Positions 532-57,559 of a DNA stretch of 64,000 bases are shown here, piece by piece (within the stretch, counting starts at the first letter, position 1; each line of letters starts with the position of its first letter). Where the stretch lies: NCBI RefSeq assembly GCF_028583425.1, contig NC_072795.1, positions 68,214,001 through 68,278,000 on the forward strand. Reading direction: 5' to 3'. Below the pieces are notes generated by a model. That model did not search any database. It was not told the DNA's origin and saw only the letters and a list, made by a program, of their open reading frames with translations. The translations under genes and the position numbers were made by a program. Source of the DNA: Eublepharis macularius (taxonomy: Eukaryota; Chordata; Lepidosauria; Squamata; Eublepharidae).

Positions 532-847
532 GAAGCTGTTGGAAGGCGAGGAGACACGTTTTAGCACCTCAAGCATCAGCATCTCATCTCTAAACCCCAC
601 TTCCAATCCAAGTTATTCCTTTCAGCCCCGGCTCTTCAGTTCCTCTATGATCAGCAGCTCCAAAATGTCCCCCACTCTTTCTTTTAAGAAAGAGGAGAAA
701 GAAGAGGCTACTAAGTTGGCCTCAAAAATCTCATCAAGTCAGGTAGGAGAAGCTTTTGCTGAAATGATTGAGGAGACCCTAACATCCACTAAGAAAACAG
801 AGCGAACAAACCTGGAGGAGGGGAGCATTGCAATCCAAAAAATGTAA
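532..847 (+). CDS. INA: Alpha-internexin, last coding exon
   Basis: Alpha-internexin is a class IV neuronal intermediate filament protein that co-assembles with neurofilament subunits in axons. The exon follows a tttacag acceptor. Its first base completes a split Arg codon and is followed by [13 protein letters not shown], the end of coil 2 with the filament-family signature ([10 protein letters not shown]-type). The remaining ~90 residues are the INA-type tail: Ser-rich, then [14 protein letters not shown], then [19 protein letters not shown], ending QKM before a TAA stop. This matches my recollection of the human INA tail (VGESFEEILEETVISTKKTE-like) much better than NEFL or NEFM. Only this exon is visible; the rod-coding exons lie left of the window. 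The 5' boundary is set by the splice site, not by an ATG. PCGF6 lies downstream in convergent orientation. Confidence 0.95.
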
Positions 848-1570
848 CACACTTAGTCTCAAGTACGATTAGACTTTAAGGGGGAATAATATAGCTTAAA
901 CTTTTTAAAATTGCCTATACGTGAATTAAGGTGCTTACCAGCTCACAAACACATAGCATTCATGTTTCACGTCACTAGACTAGTTCAGGAGCAAAGAAAC
1001 AAAGGAATGGGTCAAAGACAAGTTGGGAATACTGTGGTAAAGCTAACTAGCCAATGACATAGCAATTTAGTAGCCAGATTTCTAAACTAAAGGGAAGTTC
1101 CAAAGGGACAGCTAAGAAGGAAAGATAAAACCTACATATATTTGAATCCTGCTGTCTCTCAAATATGCTTGCATATTTTTACTTAACTCTGAATCTGGTA
1201 CCCAGGGCTAAAATGAACAGTGACAACAATCGTAGATCTCCATTCATTTGTAAAAGGTGAAATCGTATGTCCGTGCTGCAAGCTTAAATCAAAGAAGAGA
1301 CAATCTAACCTATCTACAGTCTAGCTTCATTAAACAAAACTAGGCTTTTTGAACTATTATTGGTGCTGTAAAAGAAAAAAAAAGCCAGCTTTTTTACATC
1401 TGCTAGTAATAGCACAGGGAGCCCCATTTGAATTAGTAAAATCAAATGGGGCTTGAAGAGTTAAATCACTTCTTCCTTCCCCAGATTGCCCCAGTCTGAA
1501 TCATGGCTGTATGCACATAGAGTTTTGCTTTTTACAGACCCATAGGGATCCATGGTCATCTTTGCATGGA
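848..1570 (+). other. INA: Probable INA 3' UTR and flank
   Basis: AT-rich sequence directly after the INA stop with no coding signal. The transcript end cannot be fixed: the AATAAA strings near 1724 and 2380 lie in or near repeats, so I do not assign a poly(A) site. Confidence 0.4.
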
Positions 1571-1574
1571 TAAT

Positions 1575-1609
<35 letters not shown>

Positions 1610-1622
1610 ACACACCCTATTA
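1571..1622. repeat. Palindromic (TG)n/(CA)n microsatellite
   Basis: A TG run is bracketed by inverted arms: taatagggtgtgtgt at 1571-1585 and its complement acacacaccctatta at 1608-1622. The whole block could form a hairpin. Confidence 0.85.
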
Positions 1623-1647
1623 ACATGTGTATTGAAATGTCTTTGAA

Positions 1648-1735
1648 ATTGACTGTACTGACCCATACTGTAATCTGCCTTGAGTCTCAGTGAGAAAAAG
1701 TGGACTATGAATTATGTAGATAAATAAATATCTGG
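1648..1735 (+). repeat. 3' tail of an L2-type LINE or dependent SINE
   Basis: Contains ctgtaatctgccttgagtct and ends in aataaata repeats. It is the reverse complement of the 3' tails of the L2-type LINEs at 54.4 kb and 61.6 kb. Confidence 0.7.
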
Positions 1736-1799
1736 CTTTGACTCCTAGTCTCAGCTGAAGTATGGACACAGCTGCTTAGGGTTAGGACATAAAATAGCC

Positions 1800-2140
1800 C
1801 CAAATTATGCCTCGTATATATGAGAAGCAGATTAATCCTGAACCTCTGAAGGCAGGAAACTCATGCACATGGCTGTTTCACTCCATTTCCAGTCCTCTGC
1901 CTTGCTGTGTGTTCTGTATTCATTTACAACAAAGCACAATGTATCTAGTAATGTTTGCTAGCAGCTACTGCCTTAAAAAGGGGGAGCTTATTAGGAAGAT
2001 GAATACTATGCCCCACGATAAGCAAGTAAAGGATAAGTTAGCCACACTGGTGTTCAACAGGCTGTAATGTTGTGTGATGACTAGCACATTGTGAAGACTC
2101 ATATATTTATATTTTGGGGTTACTCACAACCATTAGAAAC
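1800..2140. other. Intergenic, nothing recognised
   Basis: An 86-codon open frame lies here but has no family resemblance. I see no repeat boundary. Confidence 0.4.
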
Positions 2141-2154
2141 AAGCTGAGCATGGT

Positions 2155-2332
2155 CATAGATCCAGAGGCGTTAGCCGTGTTAGTCTGTAGTAACAAAATA
2201 GTAAAGAGTCCAGTAGCGCCTTTAAGACTAACCAACTTTATTGTAGCATAAGCTTTTGAGAACCACAGCTCTCTTTGTCAAATGCATCTGATGAAGTTGG
2301 TTAGTTTTAAAGGTGCTACTGGACTCTTTACT
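2155..2332. mobile_element. Foldback insertion 1 of the GGACTC-tail family, 14-bp TSD
   Basis: Flanked by aagctgagcatggt at 2141-2154 and 2333-2346, a perfect 14-bp target duplication. The left part is an antisense copy of a retroelement 3' end, whose complement reads ctctggatctatg at the terminus. The right part is a sense copy ending ggactctttact. The two arms are inverted relative to each other, and the right arm lacks the terminal 45 bases of the left. The left arm holds a hairpin (agagagctgtggttctc on the complement) resembling stem II of a hammerhead ribozyme. Confidence 0.8.
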
Positions 2333-3960
2333 AAGCTGAGCATGGTGTATTCTTCCTCTTTTAAAAAGTCTATACGGCAAATAAATGAGGGTCTAATCTT
2401 CTATTAGGTGCATGTCCAGTCATTTCTGTGATCATAGTGGGCCTCTGTTCAGTTTCACTTTGTGCCATACTAGTAGCCAACAGTTTAAAAATGGCCATTG
2501 CTTAGAATCAATAGTGCCAGGTACTGAAAAAATAATTAAAGGAAACACATGTGCTGTAACTAGTTTCTGCATTTTTTGGCCTTGTATCACAATAAGGCTA
2601 AAAGAAAAGATGACCAGCTCTCTTTAGTTCATTAGTAGCACAGAGTTCTAATGTTGCAAAAGTTGGGATACCTATAGCTTCCTTTAGCCACAGTCTAAAG
2701 CTACAGATAGCCTTGCCTTTGATTCACCATTAGAAAAGGATTGTAGATTTATGCCAGCTGTCTATGTGCTGTACTGAGACATATTGTGTTAATAAACACA
2801 CCTATTAAGGAATTTTCCTTAATATATTTTCTTAAATTTACTCACTGCCACATGGTAACCATACAAATGAGTTGTAGCAGTTCTAATTTCTCTCTAAATA
2901 GGTTAGGAGCACATTTATTTGGCCTTGCTGGCCAAGAAAAAAAAACACTTTGGTTTAGTAAATAAGCAACAACGAGTGTCATAGACTATGGAATTCTGAC
3001 CTTTACAACACTTTGGCAAACTGAACTCACTTTTTTGCCACAAACATCACAAAACTGTAATTACAGGGAGGGAAAGATTCACACCATTTCCCCCAAAAGA
3101 AAGCAAGAACTCTGATAAAGTTGAATCACATCTTCCATCTACGTCAGCTGTCAGTATACATCTCCAGTCTACCACTCAAATATGTGCCAAGTTTTATATA
3201 GCATTTACTATTGTAGATTTTCTTTCAATGCCTTAAGATTGCCAGCATTTGTATGTTGTGATGTATTTGCATTGATGCAACCTACCATGACAAAGTTTGA
3301 TAACACAAAACTATCTCGTTCTATCAGTCTCACTGCAATAGTTCCTTGAACTAAGAAGTACTTGCTCACATTCTTTCCTCCTCTTCTGTAAGGCACAAAT
3401 AAATGAAAAGATGCCATTAATTTAATCAGTCTGCTTATCGTTTGTGACATTTTGACTCCAAGCTTTCATCATTCTTAAAATGAATTTTATGCCATTCAGG
3501 CAAATCAGCGTTCACACATCAGACTTGACTAGGACCAATCACTATGGCTGCCAAAAGATCAAAGTAGCAAAGACTGAGGTGTTCATAAAGACTGTGTATG
3601 AGAAACTTATGTTTACCCACCCAACTGCACATTTGTAATAAATGAAGCCTGTTAGGGAAAAAGTACAAGTGTGTTGAATGTTTAGGTGGAAAATATGGGG
3701 TTTAAACAACGTTCTGGCAGGGACTGAATTGATATATAGAGCAGGGGTCCCAAAAGTTGCCTCTTCTCTGGTTCTGTCAGCTGCAGATACCTCCCCTTCT
3801 TATGAAACAAAATAAGAGTCTTATTGGTTGCTCCATCCCCTCCCCACCATGATTATTTCAGTTCTGTTTATACTAGAGCTATTATATCACCTCTAACAAC
3901 ATGAATGAAAATCTATTGTGATTTTTTTCCCCATTTAAGCACCACTTCCTGTACTACCAG
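2333..3960. other. Intergenic, nothing recognised
   Basis: AT-rich unique-looking sequence. Short open frames (for example 3208-3450, minus) show no recognisable domain. Confidence 0.4.
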
Positions 3961-3964
3961 CTTC

Positions 3965-4060
3965 TTTAAATAACAAGATTTGAGTCTGAATGGTCTCTAA
4001 GGTGCAACTGGACTTGAATCTTGCTCTTGTACTGCAGGCCAAAATGGCTACCCACCTGAA
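3965..4060 (+). repeat. Solo 3' end of the GGACTC-tail family
   Basis: Contains ggtctctaaggtgcaactgg, then cttgctcttgtactgcaggc and atggctacccacctgaa. This is the sense 3' end of the same family as the foldbacks at 2.2, 31.4 and 45.4 kb. Confidence 0.65.
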
Positions 4061-4269
4061 ACGATCTTCTTTAGATAGACCATTATTACCTAACAATTCA
4101 GGAAAACTCTAATTAAGGGTTGGCTGGCTTGTTGTAAATACCTGCTGCTTCAGATATGAATGTGATCTATATGGCAACTGATCAAGCCTTCAGTGGATAA
4201 CATATTCATGCTGACAACGTAACTGGATACTTGTTCTTGACACTTGCATTTACTGTAGCAATGGCCTTT

Positions 4270-5240
4270 ATATTTTTCTAGGGTTGTTTACTTATTTTAT
4301 CGTCTGCCTTTCTCACTGAGACTCTAGGCAGATTACATGGTATAAATCACTGCAATCGATAGGATAAGTAATGTAACTGGAATAAGATTACAGAAATCCA
4401 AGACAAGAGTGTGAAATATTAGATAAACCAGCGTTCCCCAGTGTGGCACCTGTGGGCACCCTGGTTTCTGGGAAATGAGTGGGGCCATGTTGGACATTTG
4501 ACCAGCAAGGCTTCTGATTGGCAACTGGAGATCCAATTGGCTGGGCAGATTAAAATAAGTAGTTTCAGTGGCAGCTACCAATATGGTTTTATTTTTTCTC
4601 ATTCTTCTTCCCTAGTGTATTTTTAAAATTATCCCTCTTCTCTTCTGCCCTTGGGCTTCCTGTGTTTACATGACTTTGCCTCCTGTGGCAGCCATTTTCT
4701 GGTTGTGCCCACTATCCTGTGTGAGAATTCCAAAGGTATTCACAGGCTGGGGACCCCTGTGTTAAACAATGCAGAAAATGGTATTACATTGGTAGAAAAC
4801 AATGCACTGCAAACAGGATAATACAGCAAACAGGTAACACACATACACAGGCCCATTCCCTTTAGAGAAGTATTTTCCTGAATCATTCCATTAAAATATA
4901 GCCCTATTGCCTTAAAAAAGATACCCTCCTGAATAATTCTGTTAACATAAGTTTGTGGAATGCCATAAGCTAAGGAGCTTTCCTGACATCAGGCAAGTCG
5001 TTTCACAAGGTGGGAGCTGCTAAGAAGAATGCACATGTGTAGGCAGTTGTCGATTCTGCATATTTACAGGATGGTGCCAGAAAGTCCTGCTCAGATGAGC
5101 GAAGCTGTCATGGCTCACTGCAGGAGGAGATGCAAATTTCTCTGCTTTTTCTACATATATTAATACTTTTATATGAAAATTAAATCCATATAATCCTAAC
5201 ATCCTGGCCAAAGTAGACCCTGTCATTCACCACTCCCATA
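4270..5240 (-). mobile_element. Old L2-type LINE fragment, split by a hAT element
   Basis: The left part (4285-4428) matches the 3' untranslated tail of the younger copies at 54.4 and 61.6 kb (ctcactgagactctaggcag). The part after 4767 matches their C-terminal coding end (ctcagatgagcgaagctg at about 5091). It is heavily diverged and much older than those copies. Confidence 0.65.
4429..4759. mobile_element. Non-autonomous hAT-type transposon inside the L2 copy
   Basis: Begins cagcgttccccagtgtg and ends cacaggctggggacccctg, matching the CAGNGNTCCCCA type of hAT terminal inverted repeat. The 8-bp flanks agataaac (4421-4428) and tgttaaac (4760-4767) agree at 6 of 8 positions, as expected for an old 8-bp target duplication. 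It has no transposase. Confidence 0.7.
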
Positions 5241-5970
5241 CTGAGCCTGTATAATCTGAGCCAAACTTTGCTGATGTATACAGCATGTGAATTAATTTTA
5301 GAAGTGTTCTTACATGAAAAGGCACATTGCTAGTGAAGCCAAGACAAAAAGAGAGAGAGACCATTCCTATCTAAGATCATTGCTACTCTGGGCTTGGGGG
5401 AGAATTCCTTCCAAGAATGAGCAAATCCCATACCATTCTTGTCACCAGGCTGCCAAGATGCTATCTTCCCATTCTTACAGAACAGTTTATGCAAAAACAA
5501 GATCCTATTGTTACCCAAACAGGAGGTCTCCTTAATTAGTTGGGGGAATTACCATTGAAGGAAAGAAGAGGTAACTAGGTATCTCCACCTATGTACACCA
5601 GGATTGTTCCCTTAGAGAACGCTCAAATAAACAGGCAGATGTTCTATAGGGTTTTTTATTAAAAGAGAAATAAAAAGCAAGCATACAGAAAGCACACGCA
5701 GCATACACACAGAGCTAACTAAGAAGGCAGAGAGGAAAATGGGGGAGAGTAATTTGGGATAGGGTGATAATTACCAGTCCTGAAGGAGAGATCTATGGGA
5801 GCAGAAGCAAAATGACCAGAGTTCATGGGGAGAAGGAATCAGATATATCTGAGGGTGCATGTATGGGTCCAGAACACACACACACAGCACATGGCTGGGG
5901 AGTCTAATTATAGGGCAAAACATGCCTGGGAGCAAAACTGATGTCTTGCATCAAAAGCAATACCTTAATG
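5240..5970. other. Intergenic, unclassified
   Basis: No gene. The purine-rich stretch 5640-5880 with short CA runs could be a repeat remnant, but I cannot place it in a family. Confidence 0.3.
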
Positions 5971-5977
5971 CAGTAGA

Positions 5978-6068
5978 AAAGAGCTAGAGTCCAGTAGCAC
6001 CTATATGACTAATGAAATTTGTAGTAGGGTATGAGCTTTCATGGCTTGTCTGGAGGTGGAACAATAAA
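5978..6068 (-). repeat. GGACTC-tail family 3' end, antisense
   Basis: Contains agagtccagtagcacctata and tgagctttcatggcttgtc, the complement of the 3' region seen at 3965-4060 and 45409-45546. Confidence 0.65.
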
Positions 6069-27000: not shown

Positions 27001-30000
27001 GAACCCTCTGTGACACAAAACCCTTGTGCACTGCAGAGGATTTTGCGTGGGTATGATGTTCTCAAATCGTTCAGGGAGTCAGTGAGAACTTTTGGGCTTA
27101 CTTGCCACCCAAAGAATACATGCCCTAGAATACACCTCCTAACATTTCCCTGTAGTTTCAGGAGATTGCTGGCAGTAGCTGATGCTGTCTTTCAGACAGA
27201 CTGTTTGCAGGTACTGATGATTATGCCACTGAATTCTTGACAATCACTTCTTCAGAACCCAGTTTGAAAACAGCCAACTGTTTCCTAGGATCAGTACCTG
27301 ATGACATTCTAATTTGGATAAGGTTTTTCTCTGATAACTGGGATACAGGTAAGACCAGAGTTTTTGAAATATGACCATGCCTTTTCTTTGCTCATTGTAC
27401 AATTTCTTCTGAAGAACTATAAGGAGGCAAAAATCTGAACTCATTCAGAGAGCATTCAGACACAAAACACCTCAACGACAGCCCTCAACATATCATGTCT
27501 CATCCACCAGTGGGCCACTGTGAATCACAGGTTAAAAATAGTATTCACATACGACCACTATATGACTGTGACATGAAACATGTAAAGGATCTAAGGAAAA
27601 GCTCTACAATCACTACTTAAAGACTGAACATGTTATGACATACTGTACATCTGTTTGTAAGAAAAAGCCAACATGGATTCACTTTTCAAATGAAACCAGA
27701 GGCTAGTATCTGGATAAATGCGCAGTTTCAACCACATATTCAGCTGTATATGTGTTGAATGTAAAACAGGGTTGCACTTACCTGTAACTGTTGTTCATTG
27801 AGGTTTTCTGTGCATGCACACATGGGACAGCACATGAACAAGCCTGCCAGTCAGTCCATTTCTGTCAAACTCAGAGGGCCACCCTGGGAACAACCAACCG
27901 GCTAGCCGAAAGCAGCCCCTTCCTGGAGCTAAGGAATATCCACAAAACTATTTGCTTAATTTATATAGTTAATTTATACTTGAATAAAGTGCCAAAGTGC
28001 AAAAAGTGCTCCACTACTATTCAATATTTCCTATAACAATCCAATTAACCATACACAATATCCATCTATTCTCCACTTATAAATACATCAATAAATATTA
28101 CATACATGTGAATTACAAAAATACATATATTTCCATTTCATTCTATTAAATACTACAACAATTCAACTGGTGGAGAAATACACAGTCTGTACAGGAAAAA
28201 TCTTGAAAAAATAACGACTGGTAAGTCCTCGTACTGGAATGATGTATATTCTGCTGTAGTGGCTTCTCATTCAATTCGAGCATCCATTAATATGTCCATA
28301 TGTTTCTATATTAGGGTTCATCAGCTCATACGCCCGAGAAGATAAGTGCAATCCAGGGCAAAAATGCAAATGATGCTGGGTTTTGCCAGCGTATCACCAA
28401 TCCCATTTCGTATATCACTTCTTCATAGGCTTCAATTTTAATGAACAACAGAGACAAAAACATTCAATAGCTCACCACCATGTTGGTATATGATGATGGT
28501 CCGATGCCACAGATAGTTTTTGCGGTCTGACGCAAATAGTTTTGTGGATATTCCTTAGCTCCGGGAAGGGGTTGCTTTTGGCTAGCCAGTCAGTCCATTT
28601 CTGCAGCTTTAAATTGTATCAGGGGCACCTGTCCCCTCCCAGAGCACATGCACAGTTGTTTCCTGCCAAAATAACAGGAGAGGTGGCACCCCTAGCCCTC
28701 AGTTTCTCTTGAGCCACTGGACTCTCCAAGTAAGTAGTAAAGAGCACACAGCTGGGCAGGTGGGAGGGTATGTATGCCTGAACAGAAGACCTCAATGAAC
28801 AGTAGTTACAGGTAAGTGCAACTCTGTTTTCATTGTTGGCCTTTTGTACAGTCCTACATGGGAGATTAACGAGCCATTTACCCAAGAAGGAGGAATGAGC
28901 TCTTCCCTGAAACAGTGTTTGTAGGACTGCCCGACCCACTGCTGCTTTCTTCCTGTTATGTACGTCCAGGATATAATGTCTGATGAAGGTATCAGCAGAT
29001 GTCCATGTTGCAGCTCTGCAGATGTCTTGAAGAGGGACAACTTTGATGAGCTCTGCTGAAGATGTCTGTGACCTGGTAGAATGAGCAGGGATCTTCAGGG
29101 GGCAAGGTACATTAGTCTGTTCATAGCATATTTTGACAGCTTGGACTACCCACCTGACGATGGTTGGTGAAGTGGCCTTTTTTTGGCCCTGCATAACAGA
29201 CAAACAACTGAACATCTGATCTGAATGATGCTGTGTGGTCCAGACATAAGAGTATTGCTTTCCTTACATCTAATGTGCGTGGGGATTTTTTCCATTGGAA
29301 GCCTGAGAAGGGAAGAACACAGGAAGTATTAATTCCTGTGATGTATGGAACAGGAATGTATGGTATGATCTTAATGAAAAGTGAATCTATACATAATGCT
29401 GCTAATTCACTCACTGTTGTAACAGAGGTAACGGCCACAAGAAATGCTGCTTTCATGGATAGGTGGCTAGAGCCTTAATTGTTTGGTCATTCGTTTTGCC
29501 AGGACTAGCTGCAATGACCACTGAGGTCCAATCTGAGACACTGGTGGGAACATATTGTGCAGTCTTTTAAGGAACAGTTTAGATGTATAGTTTAAAAAAA
29601 ACTGTTTTCCTATCTACGGGGAAATGGAATGCATGCACACGTGCACACACACCAATCATGAGGAAGTCTGATACTATGGGTAGCTATTGATAATTGTCTC
29701 TGGTAATCAGTAAGAGCTGGTGGAACGAAGGCTGATGAGGCCAAAACAGTGCTATCACAATACCACTTGTTCTTTCTGCATCTTGACTGTGTGGGCTAAT
29801 AGTGGTATGGGTGGAAAGGCAAAGAATAGGTACCCTGACCAGGTCATTTGAAAGGCATCTCGCATAGATTTTGGATCCATTCTCCCTCTGGAGCAGAATG
29901 ATGGGACCTTTTTATTTCCCTTGTTGCAAACTAATCTATGTCCAGGAAGCCTCATTGTTGGAAGATCAGTTGTACGCCCAATTCCTTCAGTGACCACTCA

Positions 30001-33000
30001 TGAGCGGAAGAACCTAACCTGCTCAGTCTGTCTGCAATCATGTTGGATGCACCCAGGATGTGGATGGCCTGAAGAGATACATTGTGATGTGCAGCCCAGT
30101 TCCAGATCAGCATGGACTCCATACAAAGTGTTTTTGAGGTCATGCCTCCCTGTTTGTTTATGTAGAACATGGCTGGGCAATTGAAATATTTGCACATTCT
30201 TGTTGACTACAAAATCTGCAAAGGAGATAAGTGCATAACATATTGCCCTTAGTTCTAATATGCTGATATACAATCTCCTCGCGGTCTGCTGGTCCTTTCA
30301 CTTTTGTGGTAGACACTCGTCAGTTTTTGTGGGGAGCAAAGTCTAACCTTAAAAAGGTAAGTCCTCCATCCTCTTTCTTGATTCAACAGGTAGGGCAGCG
30401 GACTGGAGCCCTGCATGCCTCCTAATCACTATAGCCAGTGCTGGTGCCCTGGTGGACAAGTTGGTCATGTTCCTTCTAGCATTAATTTGCTGTTTGGGGA
30501 GCCTAATCATCTTCTCTTGAATCACCTTGACTAAAGTTCTGTCCGTCTGTGAGCTGGTCATTGTTTATAGCCATCTTGTTCCACAAAAATATCTGTTAAC
30601 CCCCAATAATAGCTGCATAATTTGCAATCTTTTATGTTAAGGGCTGAGGATGCATAGATCTTCTGTCCCAGGCCATCGAGCTTTTCCCCTTCTTTATTGG
30701 CAGGTGCAGAGTGAGAGCCCTTGCCTATGCCTCAACTGCATCTCCTCAGTGACCAGTGATGATGGGGAAGGGTGTATGAATACGAAAGCACACATGTCCT
30801 CCTCAGTCTTTTAAAGCCCTTCAGCTTTCTTCGATCTAGGAGGAATTGAAGCTGGCCTCTCACATAAGGTGGACGTTAATTCCACGAACCCTTTGATCAC
30901 AGGGAAAGTGATATTGGCTGTTCGCCGAATACAAATGCTGTAATATTTTGTCCTTGGGTTTAGGCTCAGTAGAGGATACATTAATATTTAATGACTTAGC
31001 CATTCTGAGCATCTACTCAGTATAGAGGTGAAAGTCATCAGTGGGCAAAACTGGTTCTTTGTCTCCTAGAGTTTTGTCTGATGATGGGTCAGATGGGAGG
31101 CTTGGGCTTCGTTCAGGAGGGTACAGCTCTGGGTCTGATTCAGACAGTTGAAAGACCATTGATGACTTTGGAATAGAATGCTGCCATCGGTGCATTCTGG
31201 GCTATGTAAAAGACATGGATCCAATTGATTCTGCTCGCTAAGCCTTTCCTGCTTGATAAGCCTCTACTCAGTTGATCCTGGAAGGTGAAGGTGCACCATG
31301 ATGACACCAAGATGAGCATCTGTGTATACAACAGCTCTTGATGCGACATCCATATGTGCCCTTGATGTGTCAATTCTAAAGGTGCCCAGGGTAGCTAACT
31401 TTTCTCCTCGTGTCATAGATCCAGAGTTGTTAGCTCTGTTAGTCTGTAGTTGCAAAATAGTAAAGAGTCCAGTAGCACCTTTCAGACTAAACAACTTTAT
31501 TATAGCATAAGCTTTTGAGAACTACAGCTCTCTTTATCAGATGCAACGGACAAAGAGAACTGTGGTTCTCGAAAGCTTATGCTACAATAAAGTTAGTCTT
31601 AAAGGTACTACTGGACTCTTTACTTCTTCCTTTGAAAAGCAAACTGATAGGGATGTATTGTCGAAGGCTTTCACGGCCGGAGAACGATGGTTGTTGTGGG
31701 TTTTCAGGGCTGTATTGCCGTGGTCTTGGCATTGTAGTTCCTGACGTTTCGCCAGCAGCTGTGGCTGGCATCTTCAGAGGTGTAGCACCAAAAGACAGAG
31801 ATCTCTCAGTGTCACAGTGTGGAAAGGATGTTGGCAGGTCATTTATATCTACTCAGGAGGGGTGGGGTTGAGCTGAGTCATCCTGTAAGAGTTTCCCAGG
31901 GTGTGGAATGCTAATGGCGGGAGGCTTCACTGTATCCTGAGGAGGTTCTTTTGCATATGGATTGGTGCTTGATGTGCTAATCTTCTCTGCAGGGCTATTG
32001 TCGGGTATAGAGTGTTTTGTTAGCCTGGTGTTTTTCAGAACTGGAAACCATGCTCTGTTCATTCTTAAGGTTTCTTCTTTCCTGTTGAAGTTTTGCTTAT
32101 GCTTGTGAATTTCAATGGCTTCCCTGTGCAGTCTGACAAAATAGTTGGAAGTGTTGTCCAGTATTTTGGTGTCCTGGAATAAGATACTGTGCCCTGTTTG
32201 AGTTAGGCTATGTTCAGCCACTGCTGATTTTTCAGGTTGTCCAAGTCTGCAGTGTCTTTCATGTTCTTTTATTCTTGTCTGGATGCTACGCTTTGTGGTC
32301 CCGATGTAAACTTGTCCACAGCTGCAGGGTATACGGTATACTCCTGCAGAGGTGAAGGGGTCTCTACTGTCTTTTGCTGATCGTAGCATCTGTTGTATTT
32401 TTCGGGTGGGTCTGAATACTGCTTGAAGGTTATGCTTTTTCATAAGCTTTCCCATCTGATCAGTAATTCCTTTGATATATAGCAAAAACATTTTCCTGTA
32501 GGAGACTGTTTTTCCTTGGCTGTTCGATTCATCCTGGGTTTGATTGCTCTTCGGATTTCATTTCTGGAGTAGCCATTTGCCTGAAGTGCGTGGTTTAGAT
32601 GATTAATTTCCTCACTGAGAAAGTGCGGCTCACATATCCGTCTTGCACGATCCACTAATGTTTTCATTATGCCTCTTTTCTGTCGGGGGTGGTGATTGGA
32701 GTTTTTGTGTAAGTACCGATCAGTGTGAGTTGGTTTCCTGTAGACATTGTGACCTAACTGAAAGTTTGCTTTGCGGATGACCAAGGTATCCAGAAATGGG
32801 AGTTTTCCCTCGATTTCTTTCTCCATTGTGAATTGTATGTTCAGGTGGATGTTGTTGAGATGATTCAAAAGCCCCATCAATTCTTCCTCCCCATGGCTCC
32901 AAATGAAAAATGTATCATTCACAAACCGGAACCATACACTAGGTTTGTGGGGTGCTGATTCTAGAGCTGTTTTTTTTCAAAATGTTCCATGTAGAAGTTT

Positions 33001-36000
33001 GCTATAACTGGGCTGAGAGGGCTCCCCATGGCCACCCCATCCATCTGTTCATAGAATTCGTTATCCCATTGGAAGTAACTGGTTGTCAGACAATGATGGA
33101 ATAAGGCTGTTACATCCTCTGGGAAAATCTGATTAATAAGTGCAATAGTGTCTTTTACTGGAACCTTGATAAACAGGGATACAACATCAAAACTGACAAG
33201 TATGTCTTGTGGATTGAGTTTCAGAGAACTGATTTTGCTGATGAAATCTGCTGAATCTTTGATGTAAGACGAGGTTTTCCCGATGTAGTCCTGCAGGAGA
33301 TCGGCCAGATGTCTAGCTAATTCATATGTCGGTGAACCAATGGCACTCACAATGGGTCGGAGTGGGACTGAATCCTTATGTATTTTACGGAGTCCATATA
33401 GTCTAGGTGGCTGTGCTTCTGTCTTGCATAGTTTTCTGTGCGTGTCGGGATGTAGTGAGGAATTCTTGATCAGTGCATTTGTTAGCCTGGTGATTTTGCA
33501 GGTGGGATCTCGTTTTAGTGTTTTGTAGGTGGAGGGGTCCAGGAGTTCCTTAATCTTCTTTTTGTATTCCTCTGTTTTCATGATCACTGTAGCATTGCCT
33601 TTATCAGCTGGTAGAATGATGATGTCTGGATCTGCATTGAGGGTCCTGATGGCATTTCTCTCCTTGCGTGTTATATTGCTGGTGGGAAGCTTTTGGTGAT
33701 ACACCTCTGAAGATGCCAGCCACAGCTGCTGGCGAAGCGTCAGGAACTACAATGCCAAGACCACGGCAATACAGCCTGGAAAACCCACAACAACCAAACT
33801 GACAGGGACTTTGAGTAGAGTGAGGGAGTATGAGGGGTTTCAATGACCTCTATCTCATCTGCCTCCAAATCTATAATCAGCCTCTTGAGGGCTAGGGCGC
33901 CATCTCTCCCCAAAAGCGGGTTGTTTCAGTGGGCAACAGCCATGCATGTATTCTGAGAGGGGACAGGCGCCCCCTATATAATTTAAAGCTACAAAAATCA
34001 ACTGACTAGCAGGCCTGCGTGTATTCAGTCCCATGTGGGACTGCACAGAAGACCGACAATGAACAAAGAATTACTCAGAGTGTTAGATTAGAACCTGAGA
34101 GACACATGTTCAAATCTCTTCTCTCCCATGGAAGCTCACTGTGTGACCTTGGGCCTAACATACCTCACAGGATTGTTGTGAAGACAAAATGGGGGAGAGG
34201 AGAATAAGCCGCTTTGGGTCCCTACTGGAGAGAAAGGCAGGGTATAAATGAAGTAAGTAAGTAAATAAAAAGTCCCCATTCAAACCTGGTAAGGCTGGCA
34301 TGGCACTAGAGACAATTCTGAGGAGAGCAGCTCACGTTAGGATCCTGCTCTCCCAGGAGTGTCTGGTGCAATTCCATGCTGGGTCATGCCACAGTAATAT
34401 AATCTCTCCTGGGTGAGACAAATTCATTTGCAGCCAGAGTCGTTCTCCTAATCAGAACAGAAATGATCATTCAAGGAAATTGTGAAGCATGCTATGGTCG
34501 AAGTTGCATCTGTTGAGAAGGGGATCCGAGTTCTCTTGAGTCAAGTAGAAGTGTAAGTAAAAGCCCACAGGCTTTCCTACAAATTTCCAGAAAAGGTTAG
34601 GCTCAGGAGGCCAATAAGCTTGCATTTCCTAGAGGAGGCATCCAGTCTGTAGCCCTAGGGGAGACATGCCTGAAGACTTATTGGTTTCCCAATATGCAGT
34701 TTTTAATCTACAGTACTTGAGACAGCTTCAGTTGAAACTTTCTTAACCTGGGTCTTCTGGGGAGGATGAAATTGATTTTTCAGCCAATTCAGAAACAAGG
34801 TCTACAAACTAGCTTCTTTCTGCCAATGAAGCTCTAAGGGTAGGATTTGAAGCCTGAATGTTATGTTTTAAGGTAATCTGAACTTAAAGATCAATATAAT
34901 CTTATCACTCTATCATCAGAGAGGTGGTGGAGATGAGGGAAGGCAATTTCCTAAGACAATACCAAATGTACCTTGGAAATGTAACCTCATAGATCCTTCT
35001 TACATGGAATAGGATAATTCAAAGGTGGATTTGTTCACTTATACATCTAGCAGGCTCTTCTGTTTAACAACTAGGAGCAGGATTACTTCTTGCTTGAACC
35101 CAGAAGATACATATGATCTACCTAACCTGAGCAAGCAACTGGCTTGCTTAATATTAGAAACAAAAAAGCACACACAAGGGTGGGGAAATCCTATCCATGC
35201 TCACCTCCCTCTGCCACCAACAGGACCCCGTTTCCTCTTTTCTTTTTTGCCTATTTTTCCACCACCTTCCCAATAGGTCAGTGCACGCCCCCCCATTGTA
35301 CAATTATCCACCTGCATGATATTTCTTCCCTCCCAGTAGGCTCCATATTGCCCCCCCCCCTTTTGAGTGGCATTTACACCAAGATGTCAGCTGTCCCTGT
35401 CCAGCTTGTTACTTCATATGTGTGGGGCAGCGGGGTGTATGTGTGTGTTACTGTTTTTTCTAAAAAAAGAAACCCAACTTTTCATATTTTTTGTGTGTGC
35501 AAAAATATTTTCTTCTGAGGTAGAAAAATATCTAGGGTATATCTGGAAAAAATTTTTGGCACAGCCTGCCTCCTACTGATCACAGTGGATCATTATCCAC
35601 AGAGAATTGGGAAAATTGCTGATATGTGTATAAAACCTAGTGAAGGTAAGATACAGCAAAATGTGACCAAGTGAAATTTCTTAATTTCAGTCCATACACA
35701 ATTTACATGAATGTTGTGTATATTTCTACTTATGTCTTAACAATTCCTTTCTTTATTAAAATAATTTTGCTAAACCACAATACCAGATTTTAATGATTTA
35801 AAATGGCAAATGAATATCTAATTGAAACAATAAAAGGCAAACCACACATTTTACTTGCATTTCAAAATTACTATCTAGCCCATTTCCAATCTCTCCGGAG
35901 TCATCATTAAACACATTATTATTTTCCTTACAAATCACATTTTTCTGGTATTAGTGTTAAAAATATCATGAGGAATTAAACAAGATGGAGAATTGGTGTG

Positions 36001-39000: not shown

Positions 39001-42000
39001 GCCCATCCACTTAACTACTGTGCTACAACCTTATTCACCTGCACGCTATAGTTGATGTGCAGGTGGAAAGATAAGAGCATCATTCCACTGTATGGTGCAA
39101 GTACCACATCATACCTGACAGCCAGGATCAAGATCCATCTTTCTTCGGAGAAATTTCTCAACATGTCCAATTGTTGCTTCTCCTGAAACCCGTACAAACT
39201 TCTTTTCCAGAGGCTATAGAAAGAAGGCAGCAGATTTTAAACTGTTAGGTTACTTAATGCAAAGGATATTTTTAAACAGTATTTTTTTGGACTATATCCC
39301 ACTTTTATTTTTTTTTTAAAAACTCACCAGTATGACCCCTGAGGATTAAAACAAGTCAACATATCTATAGTGTCATTAAGTCCTCATGTCTGCCACAATA
39401 AGATCGGCTTAAGTGGTTCACAGGCTGCATAGGCCAGTTATTCCCGCCCCCTACTACTATGGTCCCTCTGAACATATGATCAGAAATTATGGCAATGGGA
39501 AATACCTCCCTCAAACACTGAACGTAGATGGCTACATCCACCAATGCTACTATTTCCAGTAGTTGCTTTGTACAGTCCTACAAATATTGTGTGCTGTCTG
39601 GTTGTGCTTCTATTTTTTTTCAGTTGACTAAAGCAGACAAAAACTTAGGATTCAAAAAGGGGATTTAAAAAAATTAGTAAATTCAGACTATGCTTTAAAT
39701 CAATAAAATAAATTACTATTTTCCAAGTCATAACAAATTATTTTATACAACTTACAAATGAAAAGGAGATGTAACTACTGAAAACAGAACCACAGTACTT
39801 ACTTTTGAGCCTTAGCCTTACAGTTTTCTTTTAAAAAAATGGTTTTCTAGATACATTTCTTTATGAATTAATTTTTAATATTTGAGATTATAGTATAAAG
39901 GAGTTTTATATATGAATAATTAAATTTCACACACATTTGGAAAAAACAAATTTCTTACTTTTTAATTTTTAAAATTTGTTTGGTGACTATGAAGGCTTTA
40001 ATTGTACATTGAGACCCAATCTCTTAAAGCAAAAAAAAAAAAGTGTTGGGGCCTTTGAATTACTTTCTCTGCATAAGATTCTTTGAGCAGTTCAGAAATG
40101 CTGAAAATTTGTTTTGCATACATTGAGATTGCATTATCATAATTCAAAATTTGTATTATGTTAACTGGTGTATGAAGTGCTGACAACTACATGAAAATAA
40201 GGCTGATTCCACACACGTTGGATAATGCACTTTCAATGCACTTTATCAATAGTTTGAGGTGGATTTTTTGTTCCACACATGAAAAAATCTGTTTCAAATT
40301 ATCTATAAACAGGATTGGAAGTGCATTATCCAACGTGTGCGGAATCACTCTATGCATACATTGAGATTGCATGATCATAATTCAAAATTTGTATTATGTT
40401 AACTGGTGTATGAAGTGCTGACAACTACATGAAAATAAGGCTGATTCCGCACACGTTGGATAATGCACTTTATCAATAGTTTGAGGTGGATTTTTTGTTC
40501 CGCACACGAAAAAATCTGTTTCAAATGATCTATAAACAGGATTGGAAGTGCATTATCCAACGTGTACGGAATCACTCTAAGTAATCTAGTCTCCTCCTGA
40601 AGCCCAGATCCTGATCAAGTGTAACCAATTCTCCTCGTCCTGCCAAGTGTCTACTCTCCACAGAGTGTTCACTAATGTTTTAAAGACGAAAAAAATACTT
40701 CAAGAACATGGGAAACTCTTTCTTGAAATTATGAAGGTGACAATGCTATGATAAGGGCAGTGACACCAATAAAATACGTGCACAAAAATATGCCCAGTTG
40801 TGCTGTAGCAGCATACACAATGCATATGAATTACCATCATATATCATTGTGCAATTCTACATTTTCTTTTAAGAAAGCCTTTCTTAGTGATGGCAGGGCT
40901 AGGATAAGTGAAGATGCTGGAATGAGGCAGGTGTCTCATTACAGCCTCTTCACTCATCCCAGCCCTGCCACCACTATGAAAGCACCTGCTTCATTCCCAC
41001 TGAGGGTTGGGGGGAAATCAAGAGCTTTTACTAGAACTCTAAAATATATTTCATTAGTTATTTAAGGCTTGCAGGCTGCTCAGAAAACAAAAGACAAATG
41101 TGTAGAATGCCACAGCAGTATAGAACTTATGTGAGGCCTCTTATTCGGCAGCAATATTGCTCTACGGATATCCTTCAGTAATTAGTTTGAGTGTTACAGT
41201 TTTCTCCACTGCATTCTTAAACAGACTTACACTGTTCTAAATTGACTGAAATTACTAGACTTAAAAAATGTAACTTTGCTTAGAATTGCACTTGTAAACA
41301 CAAAGATGTTCTTCCCATCTAGAAAAGAAGCATATGGCTGGAGTGAAGATTACAGGATGCAGGGACAGAAAAAAAGGCAAGACTATTTGAACTAATGAAA
41401 CAACAGTTCTCTTTTGATATCAACATTATACAACTCCAAGACTTCAGGTATTTCTGAAAGCCCACATACTACGAGTCTCTCTACATGAGACATCTGACAC
41501 ATGAAGAACACATGTCAGGAGATAAAATGTTAGCCAGGAAGAGTAATTTAAAAAGACAGAGCTGGTAGCAGGGCAAAGGCTTTGCTATATACTGGAGCTG
41601 TGTGAAGGGGCCGTGAAATGCCAGAAGGGAAGCCCATTATAACCTCTCCAGGTCCAAGTCCAGCTCTGGAAGGCAGCTCCAGCCCATTTCCATTCCTTGC
41701 TGCCCTCTAGTTGCGATCCCACAGTTTTAGACTGGAGAGATGAAATTGACAGAGCATTCAGGGAGACGAAGATGCAATTAACAAACCCTCTGAGGAGCAA
41801 TCTCCACCAGTTGTCTTTTTAAACTAAGCTTCCCAGCTAACAGTGTGTCTCCCTACACCTGATGAACACTCGTCGAGGCGTCTTGTGTAGAGACGCTATA
41901 TAGGCAGAATTAAAAACTAAAAGAAACCCTATTCCTTTCTTTTTAAAAAACTAAACAATTGCATACAATGCCAGAAAATTTAATGGGGATAATACAGATT

Positions 42001-45000: not shown

Positions 45001-48000
45001 AATGACAAATATAATGGGTCTTATTAGCATACGGATGACACCAATCTCACACTTGGAATGATCTCATCCAGCAGTTTCATGTTAATTTTAAATTAGTGAC
45101 AGAAGATATGCAAAACAGACTTGAGATAAATTGGGAGAGTCTATTTTATACACTTTTGTCTATAAATGGCAAATTATTTTAGTGGTTTATTATTTTATTC
45201 AGAGCAATAGTTAGCAGAGCTACACCATGCTAAATCCACTGAAGTCAATGGGCTTTAAAATGTATAACTTTGCTTAGGATTACAATATAAATGTATTCCG
45301 ATACATGAGGGGAAACTTTTAATTACAAAAAAAGGCTGCTTTTATACTGTTATAGGAACAAATTCCTCCATTACAGTGCTAATATAACTTGATCTTAGTT
45401 TAGGCTGTGCAGGTCTGTAGTAGAACAGCGAGACTTGAGACCAGTAGCACTGAAGAGACCAATCAGAAATACAAGGTATGAGCTTCGACTCTCAAAAGCT
45501 CATACCCTGGAAATCTAGTTGGTCTCTAAGGCGCTACTGGACCCGAATCTTAGTTCAGACTGTAACACTAAATATTAGGTAAATTAGTCTGTTTGACTTC
45601 AGCAGAACTATATATGCATTAGAGCCTTGAATTCTGTAATCAACAGTCAAAATATTTTTTAAAAATTTATTTATTATCTGTTTTATCCCAGAAACAGGAA
45701 AACACGTTCTTCCAGATAATTTTATCTTTCAAAATGCCTAAAGTTTAGTGCTTTATTTACATGCATGTCTGAATGATGAACAGAAGATCTGGGAAAGCAT
45801 GTTATTTGAAACAAAGTGACCACAGTTTCTCATTTAGGCGTCTCCAATTTCTTTCTACTATTGCAGGAAGAATTTAACCATTGCTAAATTTCGTCTGAGT
45901 AATGTAGAATCAGATAAATTCAAAATTCCATTTTCTTTTTTATATTCAATGGACATTATTTACACAAGTGCTTGTATAAAAGATGCACAAGTTCATAATA
46001 CGCTGCGCAAATGCCACTCTTTTGTAAGCATATCAAACCTTTTTATGGTCTAGTCGTTTTTGTTTAACTGGGCTGGATCCCATGGATCTGTTCCACTCAG
46101 GGTGGTGTTTTCCTCTGGCAAAAAGAGCTCTCCATGATACAAGAGGGTCTTTCATTGGTAGAAGAAGATCTGCTGGCAAGCAGGCTCCTTGCACAGAAGA
46201 AAATCACTGCTCTTGACAAAACAAATCCATCCCATTATTCTACAGTCAACTCACTATTCTTCTGGACAGCAAATCAGACTGTTAAGTGTCAGTATACCAT
46301 TTGACACTTAAGAAAAAAAGTCTCTAAAACCTTAATTGGATTAAAATGTTGAAGAACAGGCTGGTTTGTTTTTTATACGAACTCCTACAGAATCTCATGT
46401 AAAACCATGGAGCTGCTCAGTTCTGAATTTGTTAGATTGTAATTTATTTAAGAAGCAGTAAATTTCAGCTCAATGACTAACTTAAAATCAAATTATTTTT
46501 AAAACAATACTGAAGATACAGAATCATAATTAAAGAAAATAAACTGAACAGAATACAAATCATTCCAAAATTAATCTTAAATTTAGCCCTAAGCAAAATC
46601 TTCTATAGCACAGACAGTTTCTCTTAAAAACCTCTAAGCACATTTTCTCTCACAAGTGACTTGTTTTTTTATTTTCTAACACCAGGTTTGTGAAATTTTA
46701 AATCATCAACATTTTCATGGATGCTCTGTATCAATAAACAGTTGTCACCTTTCCAGCTTCTTCTTCACAGCTAACCTAATGATGCCCCAAGCAAGAATGA
46801 TGACATAATTAATACATTTTTAGAATGTTGCATAAAAACAGCATTTGTTATTTGAAAGGTGCACTGTATAAGTTTACAATATATCAGAGTGTCTTGCTAT
46901 ACTATCACCCCAATAAACTGTCCTGATAATCAGTAATTGCCACCTGGTTCATTTCCTCTGCTTAAATTAACAGGACAAGGCTGAACCATTGCTCATGTTA
47001 CTCTTTTTCTACATAAAGATAACCTCTATAAAGGCTAGCAAACATTTGTTGTAAAGAGTGTCAACATAACTTTTTCATGACATAAGAACACTGTCCATGA
47101 GCAGGGCATACAAATATCGGCTTCCAATTCAAAAGATGTGCTGTGTTTTAAGCTCAAATAAAACTATTGATAACTATGGTCTGAGTCCATCAAATCATTT
47201 CAATAGAATGATCTCTGCCCACAGAATGCAACTTCCTTCCTTCTCCCTCTCCTGCTACAGCTTGAAATGCTTCTGAAAAGCTGTCCTTGGGGAACAGGGA
47301 TCTCCAGGGATGGCAATGGGGGCATTTCAGGATGCAGCATGTGTTGGGGGGGGGATATGCTACAATACAGCATGCACACACACAAACACACACAGCAAAG
47401 TTACAGGCAACCTTCATGTTTCTATAAATTTGCAAAGGCTGCCTGTCAAAAAATATTTGGAAATCTGCAGCCTGCAAAGGGGTTATTAAGAAAGTTTATG
47501 AGTTAAATTGCTTTTCAATTTATTTGTTAAAGAGAGCTACTGAAGGACAAGTCAGGAAAAGATATTAGTGTTGGAACAATGTGCATCTTGCAAGTACTGG
47601 ATAATTGATATTTAAGTTCTAAAATACACTGGCAATACATAGCTAAAATATACAACTTTTGTCCCCTAAATAGAGGACTGACAACATTGCAACTTCAATC
47701 CCCTACCTGGTAACTTGTATCAAGATCAAGAAACAAGTAAAAACTGTAGTATAAATAACAGGGAATGAACATTTTGACAGGATGTGTGTAGAAGTCAAAC
47801 TAAACATTTATATATTTGACATCTGGACCTCATATTTTATGAGAACTAGACAGACTCCAGGCTACAGCAAGATTCTACTTAGGGAGTATGTAGGCTGGCA
47901 TAATGGATAAAGTGGTGGAACTGTCCTGGGAATATCTAGGCTCAAATCTCCACTTGGTTAAAAAGTTTACTGGGCTTTTGGTAAATCATTGTATCTCAAC

Positions 48001-56803: not shown

Positions 56804-56916
56804 AAGCCTGTTGCCGCGCGCAAGCTCCTAATATACCTTCCTTAAAAAAAAAATCTATTCTCTCTAAGTATTCTGGGAAAATGAGTTTTTTGGGTTATGG
56901 GACAATGTGAGCATTA

Positions 56917-56941
56917 CTAACACGGCTAACTCCTCTGGATC
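56917..56941 (+). mobile_element. 25-base 3' end insertion of the GGACTC-tail family
   Basis: ctaacacggctaactcctct plus ggatc, bracketed by tgtgagcatta at 56906-56916 and 56942-56952. The perfect 11-bp duplication shows a real, extremely truncated insertion and fixes the family terminus. Confidence 0.75.
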
Positions 56942-57559
56942 TGTGAGCATTATTGTTCGCGCAATGACCAATTCAGCTCTTTCATTCTGGGTAGAAGTGC
57001 TTAAAGCCGATTTTCGATTTCTGGCATAAATACACACTATTTATTTAAATATACTTGCATTTAACATTGCTGAGTACCTCATAATGGCTTTAATCTACGT
57101 ACAGTTTAAAGATAATTAGCCTGCATGCAACCAGTATAATCTGTTCGTGATAAGAGCCAATAAAGTGTCCTGATTGAGACTCAACTAAAGATCAATAAAA
57201 ATCTGAACAATCTATTAAACAAAAGATGTATGTATTTTCATGCTCATATGGCCATTTTTTTCTATAGGAAAAACGACTGATGGCTGACTTGACCTTCTGG
57301 CAACAACCAATAATTGAAATATTTTTGCCATTTTAATTTTATAAGACAGAATTGACGCCCAGTAGTAATTGTAGTTTTGATCACAAAGTACATTATATGA
57401 AGTATGTGAAATGTTTAGATTTACAATCTTATCATATTAATGTTTACTCGAAAGCATTTCAGTGGGATTTACAAAGTTGTATATGCACACCAAAAAGTCT
57501 TTGGAGACTAACTGTTCTATATAACTGAGCGAGATTTCTAAATGTAAGTGGGATCAGTC

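Follow-up and report, generated by a model that had tools for sequence, protein, structure and literature searches.

Inverted Penelope-like insertions in Eublepharis macularius join one outer and one inner end, probably by reverse transcription primed on both target strands

Introduction

The protein of a Penelope-like element (PLE) of the green anole, the Poseidon element PAc, has been studied in purified form and cuts and extends both target strands in vitro (PMC11167929). Reverse transcription starts at positions 111-118 of the open reading frame (ORF) and at a second, adjacent site, and the tail of the element is the sequence between the two start sites (PMC11167929). The same 2024 study names the completion of PLE insertion as still to be worked out. 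Here, we describe foldback (head-to-head inverted) PLE copies in a 64,000-nucleotide stretch of Eublepharis macularius DNA (G000:C6:68214001-68278000; hereafter the window), above all the coding copy at 31654 (foldback D), together with relatives found by searches over the 2.24-Gb assembly. The outer start site is denoted O and the inner start site I. It is likely that such a foldback is a single insertion in which each of the two target strands primed reverse transcription (target-primed reverse transcription, TPRT), with one start at O and the other at I and with the two complementary DNAs (cDNAs) joined.

When D is aligned to the ORF start of the anole element, its outer end falls at ~116-119 and its inner arm end at ~83, i.e., at the same two end sites as in PAc (~83 and ~118, ORF numbering by alignment), and both elements have a hammerhead core at the ORF start (PMC11167929). 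Because the ends of D thus align with a PLE that starts reverse transcription at two adjacent sites, the offset between O and I is the spacing of the two start sites. The portions of the anole study considered here do not discuss inverted pseudo-long terminal repeats (pLTRs), joined two-ended products or the use of one site per strand.

In the bdelloid rotifer Adineta vaga, Penelope has an inverted pLTR that is 37 bp shorter than the full one, a 31-bp tail on one end, target-site duplications (TSDs) of 9-10 bp and head-to-head junctions with palindromes (PMC3846280), all of which resemble the present foldbacks. In contrast to our reading, these structures were attributed to self-priming, for which an antisense template was considered probable; the copies were few, and the arm-length test used below was not found in the parts of that article considered. 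This 2013 proposal is the only explanation of inverted, one-tailed terminal repeats that we found in the literature (PMC3846280).

LINE-1 dual priming is the nearest mechanism found (PMC2837659). In twin and dual priming, the second target strand primes cDNA (on a second mRNA in dual priming), and TSDs bracket the inverted parts. These are, however, variant or hypothetical routes in which the second start is not fixed, whereas two fixed starts are used here in most sampled copies; moreover, twin priming gives an inversion with internal deletion and no duplicated arms (PMC2837659). Priming at a poly(A) tail, as in LINE-1, does not apply here, the PLE ends being fixed internal sequences. Both-strand priming by the PLE would work like LINE-1 twin/dual priming without making the PLE a member of L1. 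Minimal type I hammerhead ribozymes of PLEs also have a core lacking helix III at the element end, and their role in PLEs is described as unknown (PMC7761336, PMC6155905).

The coding foldback D

Foldback arms were located by self-comparison of DNA stretches, and the significance of TSDs was evaluated against 20,000 random pairs, with 8-10 element bases permitted at each edge. The arms of D are 107 bp long and 96% identical. Its features are as follows.

31640..31653 and 33795..33808, plus strand: left and right TSDs of D (P=0.0013); the right one overlaps the arm end by two bases
31654..31687, minus strand: tail of D, between the O and I start sites
31688..31794, minus strand: O-side arm of D, the element 3' end in sense
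31737..31777, minus strand: hammerhead ribozyme core in the O-side arm (CTGAAGA, 6-bp stem II, GAAA)
31853..32557, minus strand: frame piece with a putative endonuclease region, GIY-YIG-like (T5orf172 match weak, E=0.013)
32961..33746, minus strand: frame piece with the reverse transcriptase (PF00078)
33690..33796, plus strand: I-side inverted arm of D, without tail
33707..33747, plus strand: hammerhead ribozyme core in the I-side arm, GAAA changed to GAAG

The reading frame of D is split into pieces. The reverse transcriptase matches PF00078 with E=9.8e-7 and 29.1 bits, slightly below the curated cut-off of 29.6, and a putative endonuclease is suggested by the weak match to T5orf172, a family that we take to be akin to GIY-YIG, together with GIY-YIG-like residues recognized by eye. 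With its 30-40-nt tail and its inverted pLTR with TSD, and given the alignment described above, D is a PLE close to a named one, the anole Poseidon element. Hammerhead cores without helix III occur twice in the window compared with 0.4 expected in shuffled windows, and a core is present in 85 of the 92 arms found across the sampled coding-family loci (L009-L067). At gathering score Rfam gave no match anywhere in the window, and at E up to 10 it gave only weak matches in 31400-33810, the best being microRNA families in the foldback. Viral contigs, scanned by exact pattern, contained neither the tail of non-coding family A/C (see below) nor the coding-family arm.

One outer and one inner end in most sampled foldbacks

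Relatives were sampled per query as the 40 best-scored candidates, ranked by similarity to the window copies, and the counts are lower bounds. Several end assignments were made by eye and are marked so. For the coding family, a query consisting of the arm retrieved 299 candidates, of which the 40 best yielded 45 matches; every matched place except the window's own was taken (39 stretches), and the window copy was added. This I-anchored sample contains 34 head-to-head pairs, of which 33 combine one O end with one I end, none has two I ends and one has two O ends. TSDs with P < 0.01 bracket 31 of the 34, the exceptions being L023, L043 (in which a further O unit lies in tandem) and L040, the O/O pair. 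Eight loci fall outside the 34: L013, L027 and L028 are one-sided, L037, with an O arm of 24 bases, and L046, with an I arm interrupted by a gap, are O/I by eye, and L016, L031 and L044 have no class assigned.

In a complementary O-anchored sample, a tail-bearing query retrieved 145 candidates, the 40 best of which contained 42 matches, and 20 of the 39 non-window places were examined. All 11 resolved pairs are O/I, with TSDs at P < 0.005 in every one except L062. Single O ends without a significant TSD were seen in L063 and L065 and in a second insertion in L057. If the site at each end were chosen independently, even the best-fitting probability would yield no more than 1.1e-6 for the 41 foldbacks with supporting TSDs, a figure that treats the two samples as purely I-anchored and purely O-anchored.

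The initial annotation had proposed a mechanism that fixes the breakpoint and had suggested plotting arm-end offsets over genomic copies. The sharp end positions in the sampled copies support such a mechanism: across the 41 TSD-supported coding-family foldbacks, I ends span -3 to +2 and O ends +30 to +34, where +34 is the end of the reference and the true O end may lie 1-3 bases further. The non-coding family A/C is looser (I at -5 to +12, O at +30 to +47).

The flanks of L040 are inverted copies of each other, and there is no TSD. At 806-4641 of this locus, two long PLE copies with their outer ends pointing outward lie within an inverted duplication with mirrored flanks. Because the flanks mirror each other, L040 is discounted as an O/O insertion and taken as an inverted duplication, by duplication or assembly foldback. 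The AACT motif in the I flanks of most I-anchored copies was considered as a target motif and rejected, since the first query carried that flank.

The same pairing is found in the non-coding families. For family A/C (window foldbacks A and C), a query without tail and without flank retrieved 2922 candidates, among the 40 best of which there were 82 matches, and 20 stretches were inspected. Fourteen of the 17 two-armed copies are O/I, and the TSD reaches P < 0.05 in 12 of these; L071 has P = 0.086, and L068 is O/I by eye with a TSD of ~15 bases beside an older PLE tail, where the scripted test failed (P = 0.80). The class of L080 and L085 is unclear, and L079, L081 and L086 are not foldbacks. 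All 14 candidates of family B were scored, giving 15 matches. Its four pairs, window foldback B and three more, are O/I with TSDs throughout (P = 0.0003, 0.0005, 0.003, 0.001); seven matches are unpaired, and the four of these that were examined (L104-L107) have no class assigned. For the E-like family, a tail-bearing query was used and 12 of 40 places were examined, of which seven are O/I and five one-sided (by eye).

A probable two-cDNA mechanism and the alternatives

We propose that the PLE protein would cut both target strands ~10-14 bases apart, and that each new 3' end would prime cDNA on PLE RNA, one at O and the other at I, 35-45 nt upstream. The resulting antisense cDNAs, whose lengths are independent of each other, would then be joined at their growing ends through microhomology, short palindromes or templated filler, presumably by annealing followed by end joining. 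The outcome would be an inverted repeat, head to head, that is bracketed by TSDs and has a single tail. The two fixed ends, one of each kind per copy, the TSDs, the independent arm lengths and the junction fillers can be read in the sequences; the presence, within one TSD pair, of two cDNAs whose lengths vary independently suggests that both target strands were primed. Simultaneous starts, assignment of one site per strand by the protein and the action of a joining enzyme would complete the scheme. The span of the TSDs outside the aligned ends is 8-15 bases in 37 of 39 measured foldbacks and 10-12 in 26 (L048 and L055 excluded), which is what would be expected from a single complex making both cuts.

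Under self-priming, one cDNA (or antisense transcript) would fold back and be copied into the second arm, with copying halted short of the end. Arm lengths were measured in 43 coding-family foldbacks, excluding L040 and L015 (repeated centre). The tail-less I arm exceeds the tailed O arm by more than 20 nt in 13 copies, the reverse holds in five and in 25 the two are within 20 nt of each other. The extremes are L009 (I 1207 vs O 638), L022 (I 1712 vs O 613) and window D (O 2001 vs I 106). In copies with the longer I arm, body sequence present in that arm is missing from the O arm, while the tail present in the O arm is missing from the I arm. Since each holds sequence that the other lacks, neither arm was copied from the other in those 13, 12 of which have TSDs (L062 does not). 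Both snapback of cDNA and self-priming on an antisense transcript are thereby excluded for 13 of 43; in the other 30, arm length alone is compatible with self-priming. The published rotifer case rests on palindromes at inverted junctions (PMC3846280), and palindromes are present here too: the 10-bp AGAGATCTCT at -119 of the coding family lies near many junctions, and the centre of the non-coding family is ATGCAT or a close variant in 16 aligned copies. Self-priming would nevertheless leave unexplained why copying halts at a published start site, and we consider it unlikely as the general route.

Independent arm lengths and a single tail per copy would likewise be produced by a template jump, i.e., TPRT from O on sense RNA followed by a jump to an antisense transcript with its 5' end at I. 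Opposed promoter motifs reported in rotifer pLTRs (PMC3846280) would fit this route. A template jump, however, requires an antisense start at I in every family, whereas I is already accounted for as a start site of reverse transcription (PMC11167929), and L028, L013 and L027 are one-sided insertions that end at I and have TSD-like repeats. This route appears quite unlikely.

The initial annotation had also raised the mobilization of pre-folded units, in which a foldback master would be transcribed and inserted anew as a complete unit. The common centre of the non-coding family would fit such a master; it could also reflect two cDNAs running off one RNA 5' end. In the coding family the central junctions are copy-specific: among the 43 measured, 13 have overlap, seven have none and 23 have filler of 1-53 nt, which often repeats adjacent sequence (by eye). 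The 20 filler-free junctions have a mean overlap of 1.45 compared with 0.65 for random blunt joins. In family A/C, none of 88 columns differs consistently between the O and I arms, whereas a fixed master would tend to show some, a result that argues against pre-folding there without excluding it. Pre-folded units are therefore unsupported and very unlikely. An ordinary nested insertion, a later rearrangement or an assembly foldback artefact, as L040 with its two O ends, mirrored flanks and missing TSD appears to be, is hardly credible for the rest, since 41 coding-family foldbacks are bracketed by TSDs and a mean arm difference of 1.6% (33 foldbacks) is unlike a read folded on itself.

Arm polymorphism was also considered as a test of one versus two templates. 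The within-copy arm difference of 1.6% in the coding family compares with 2.0% between copies (permutation P=1e-4), and in the non-coding family the values are 7.8% and 8.6% (P=0.03). This pattern fits the same or a similar source RNA, but several of the variants were selected by the queries themselves, so no weight is placed on it.

Several observations weigh against priming of both strands from O and I. The I-anchored query ended in the window's own flank (AAACTG), which biases that sample toward I ends and AAACT flanks, and the 20 stretches of family A/C were hand-picked, mostly top-ranked, from a list displaying the partners, so that their counts carry a selection caveat. One-sided insertions occur at both sites: L013, L027 and L028 end at I with short TSD-like repeats (by string match, with no null), and L050 and L052 end at O with TSDs. 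In the O-anchored sample, L051, L053, L056, L064 and L067 (5 of 20) extend past the examined DNA. The A/C copy L084 (TSD P = 0.005) pairs an O end with a start that lies 22 nt inside I, and the TSDs of the seven O/I copies in the E-like sample are not significant (P = 0.09-0.80). Counted strictly beyond the ends, TSD matches reach a score of at least 8 in 36 of 39 copies, a tally with no null. Moreover, the published assay detected no difference in start site between the strands, so a strict one-O-one-I rule needs a coupling that was not observed in vitro, and the text of that study, as far as considered here, makes no mention of joined two-ended products (PMC11167929).

For the two-strand TPRT model we distinguish a stricter version, obligate asymmetric dual priming, for and against which we regard the case as evenly balanced. 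Here, a dimeric protein would give O to one strand and I to the other, the meeting of the cDNAs would replace second-strand synthesis, the inverted tailed pLTR would be its footprint, and one-sided copies would be those in which one cDNA failed. Were the one-O-one-I rule true, PLEs would complete retrotransposition in their own way, by two cDNAs meeting head to head. The genomic copies connect the inverted-repeat puzzle to start sites established in vitro and exclude self-priming for about one-third of the foldbacks measured; the dual-start reading would also bear on two-ended RNA-templated insertion generally. Neither the one-O-one-I rule nor the two-cDNA argument was found in searches of open-licence literature, and an earlier statement elsewhere is possible.

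The other foldbacks and PLE pieces of the window

Five foldbacks with an inverted arm short of the 3' end had been listed in the initial annotation, and self-comparison recovers inverted arms at all five places (E = 2e-11 to 5e-52 within the stretches compared). Besides D, they comprise the following.

2155..2332, minus strand: foldback A, non-coding family A/C, O end left and I end right
2199-2333: arms at foldback A (self-comparison)
2141..2154 and 2333..2346, plus strand: left and right TSDs of A (14/14 identical, P=0.00065)
27865..28584, minus strand: foldback B
27897-27955 (O side) and 28532-28590 (I side): arms of foldback B (59 bp, 93% identity; the last I-side bases also match the TSD)
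27846..27864 and 28585..28603, plus strand: left and right TSDs of B (19/19 identical, P=0.0003)
31412..31624, minus strand: foldback C, non-coding family A/C
31459-31624: arms at foldback C (self-comparison)
45408..45546, minus strand: foldback E, O end left and I end right
45441-45540: arms at foldback E (self-comparison)
45392..45407 and 45547..45562, plus strand: left and right TSDs of E (P=0.0013)

TSDs lie outside both arms at four of the five (A, B, D and E; P = 0.0003-0.0013), and because they bracket the whole foldback, each of these is one insertion. At C (31414-31624) the random-pair test found no TSD (P = 0.33). All five are PLE ends, in agreement with the Penelope identity first suggested and with the inverted pLTRs with a short, one-sided tail already published (PMC3846280; PMC8969392). 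The offsets of 35 and 45 originally given are about right, the values being 33-35 at 27865 (B) and 31654 (D) and 44-47 at 2155 (A) and 31414 (C). The offset of 26 at E is explained by a shorter outer end, the inner end aligning with that of its relatives (by eye). The shared geometry of the coding and non-coding families likewise stands. Families A/C, B and E/F look like relatives of the coding PLE with the same two end sites and not like unrelated elements. From their end geometry, these families (window copies of ~90-720 bp) are taken as non-autonomous or truncated relatives.

Three further PLE pieces had been missed.

3973..4060, plus strand: small foldback F, E-like family (TSDs 3956-3972 and 4061-4077, P=0.0024)
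56917..56941, plus strand: insertion G, ~25 tail bases alone (11-bp TSDs 56906-56916 and 56942-56952, P=0.0024)
~5969-6039: old PLE fragment H, no TSD found in the random-pair test

The inverted arm of F is ~13 bases long and lacks the tail (by eye), and G is apparently a TPRT event halted within the tail. An outer inverted-repeat pair (27758-27823 and 28770-28834, 66 bp, 88%) surrounds B, which may have inserted into an older palindromic element. Units of family A/C also occur in tandem, as an array at G000:C10:20974021-20975286 with 146 bp spacing and nine matches in one orientation, and at 1-352 of L079 as three units in partial tandem that are separated by short inverted pieces. Finally, 40134-40982 of the window contains long imperfect self-inverted stretches, perhaps simple-repeat DNA.

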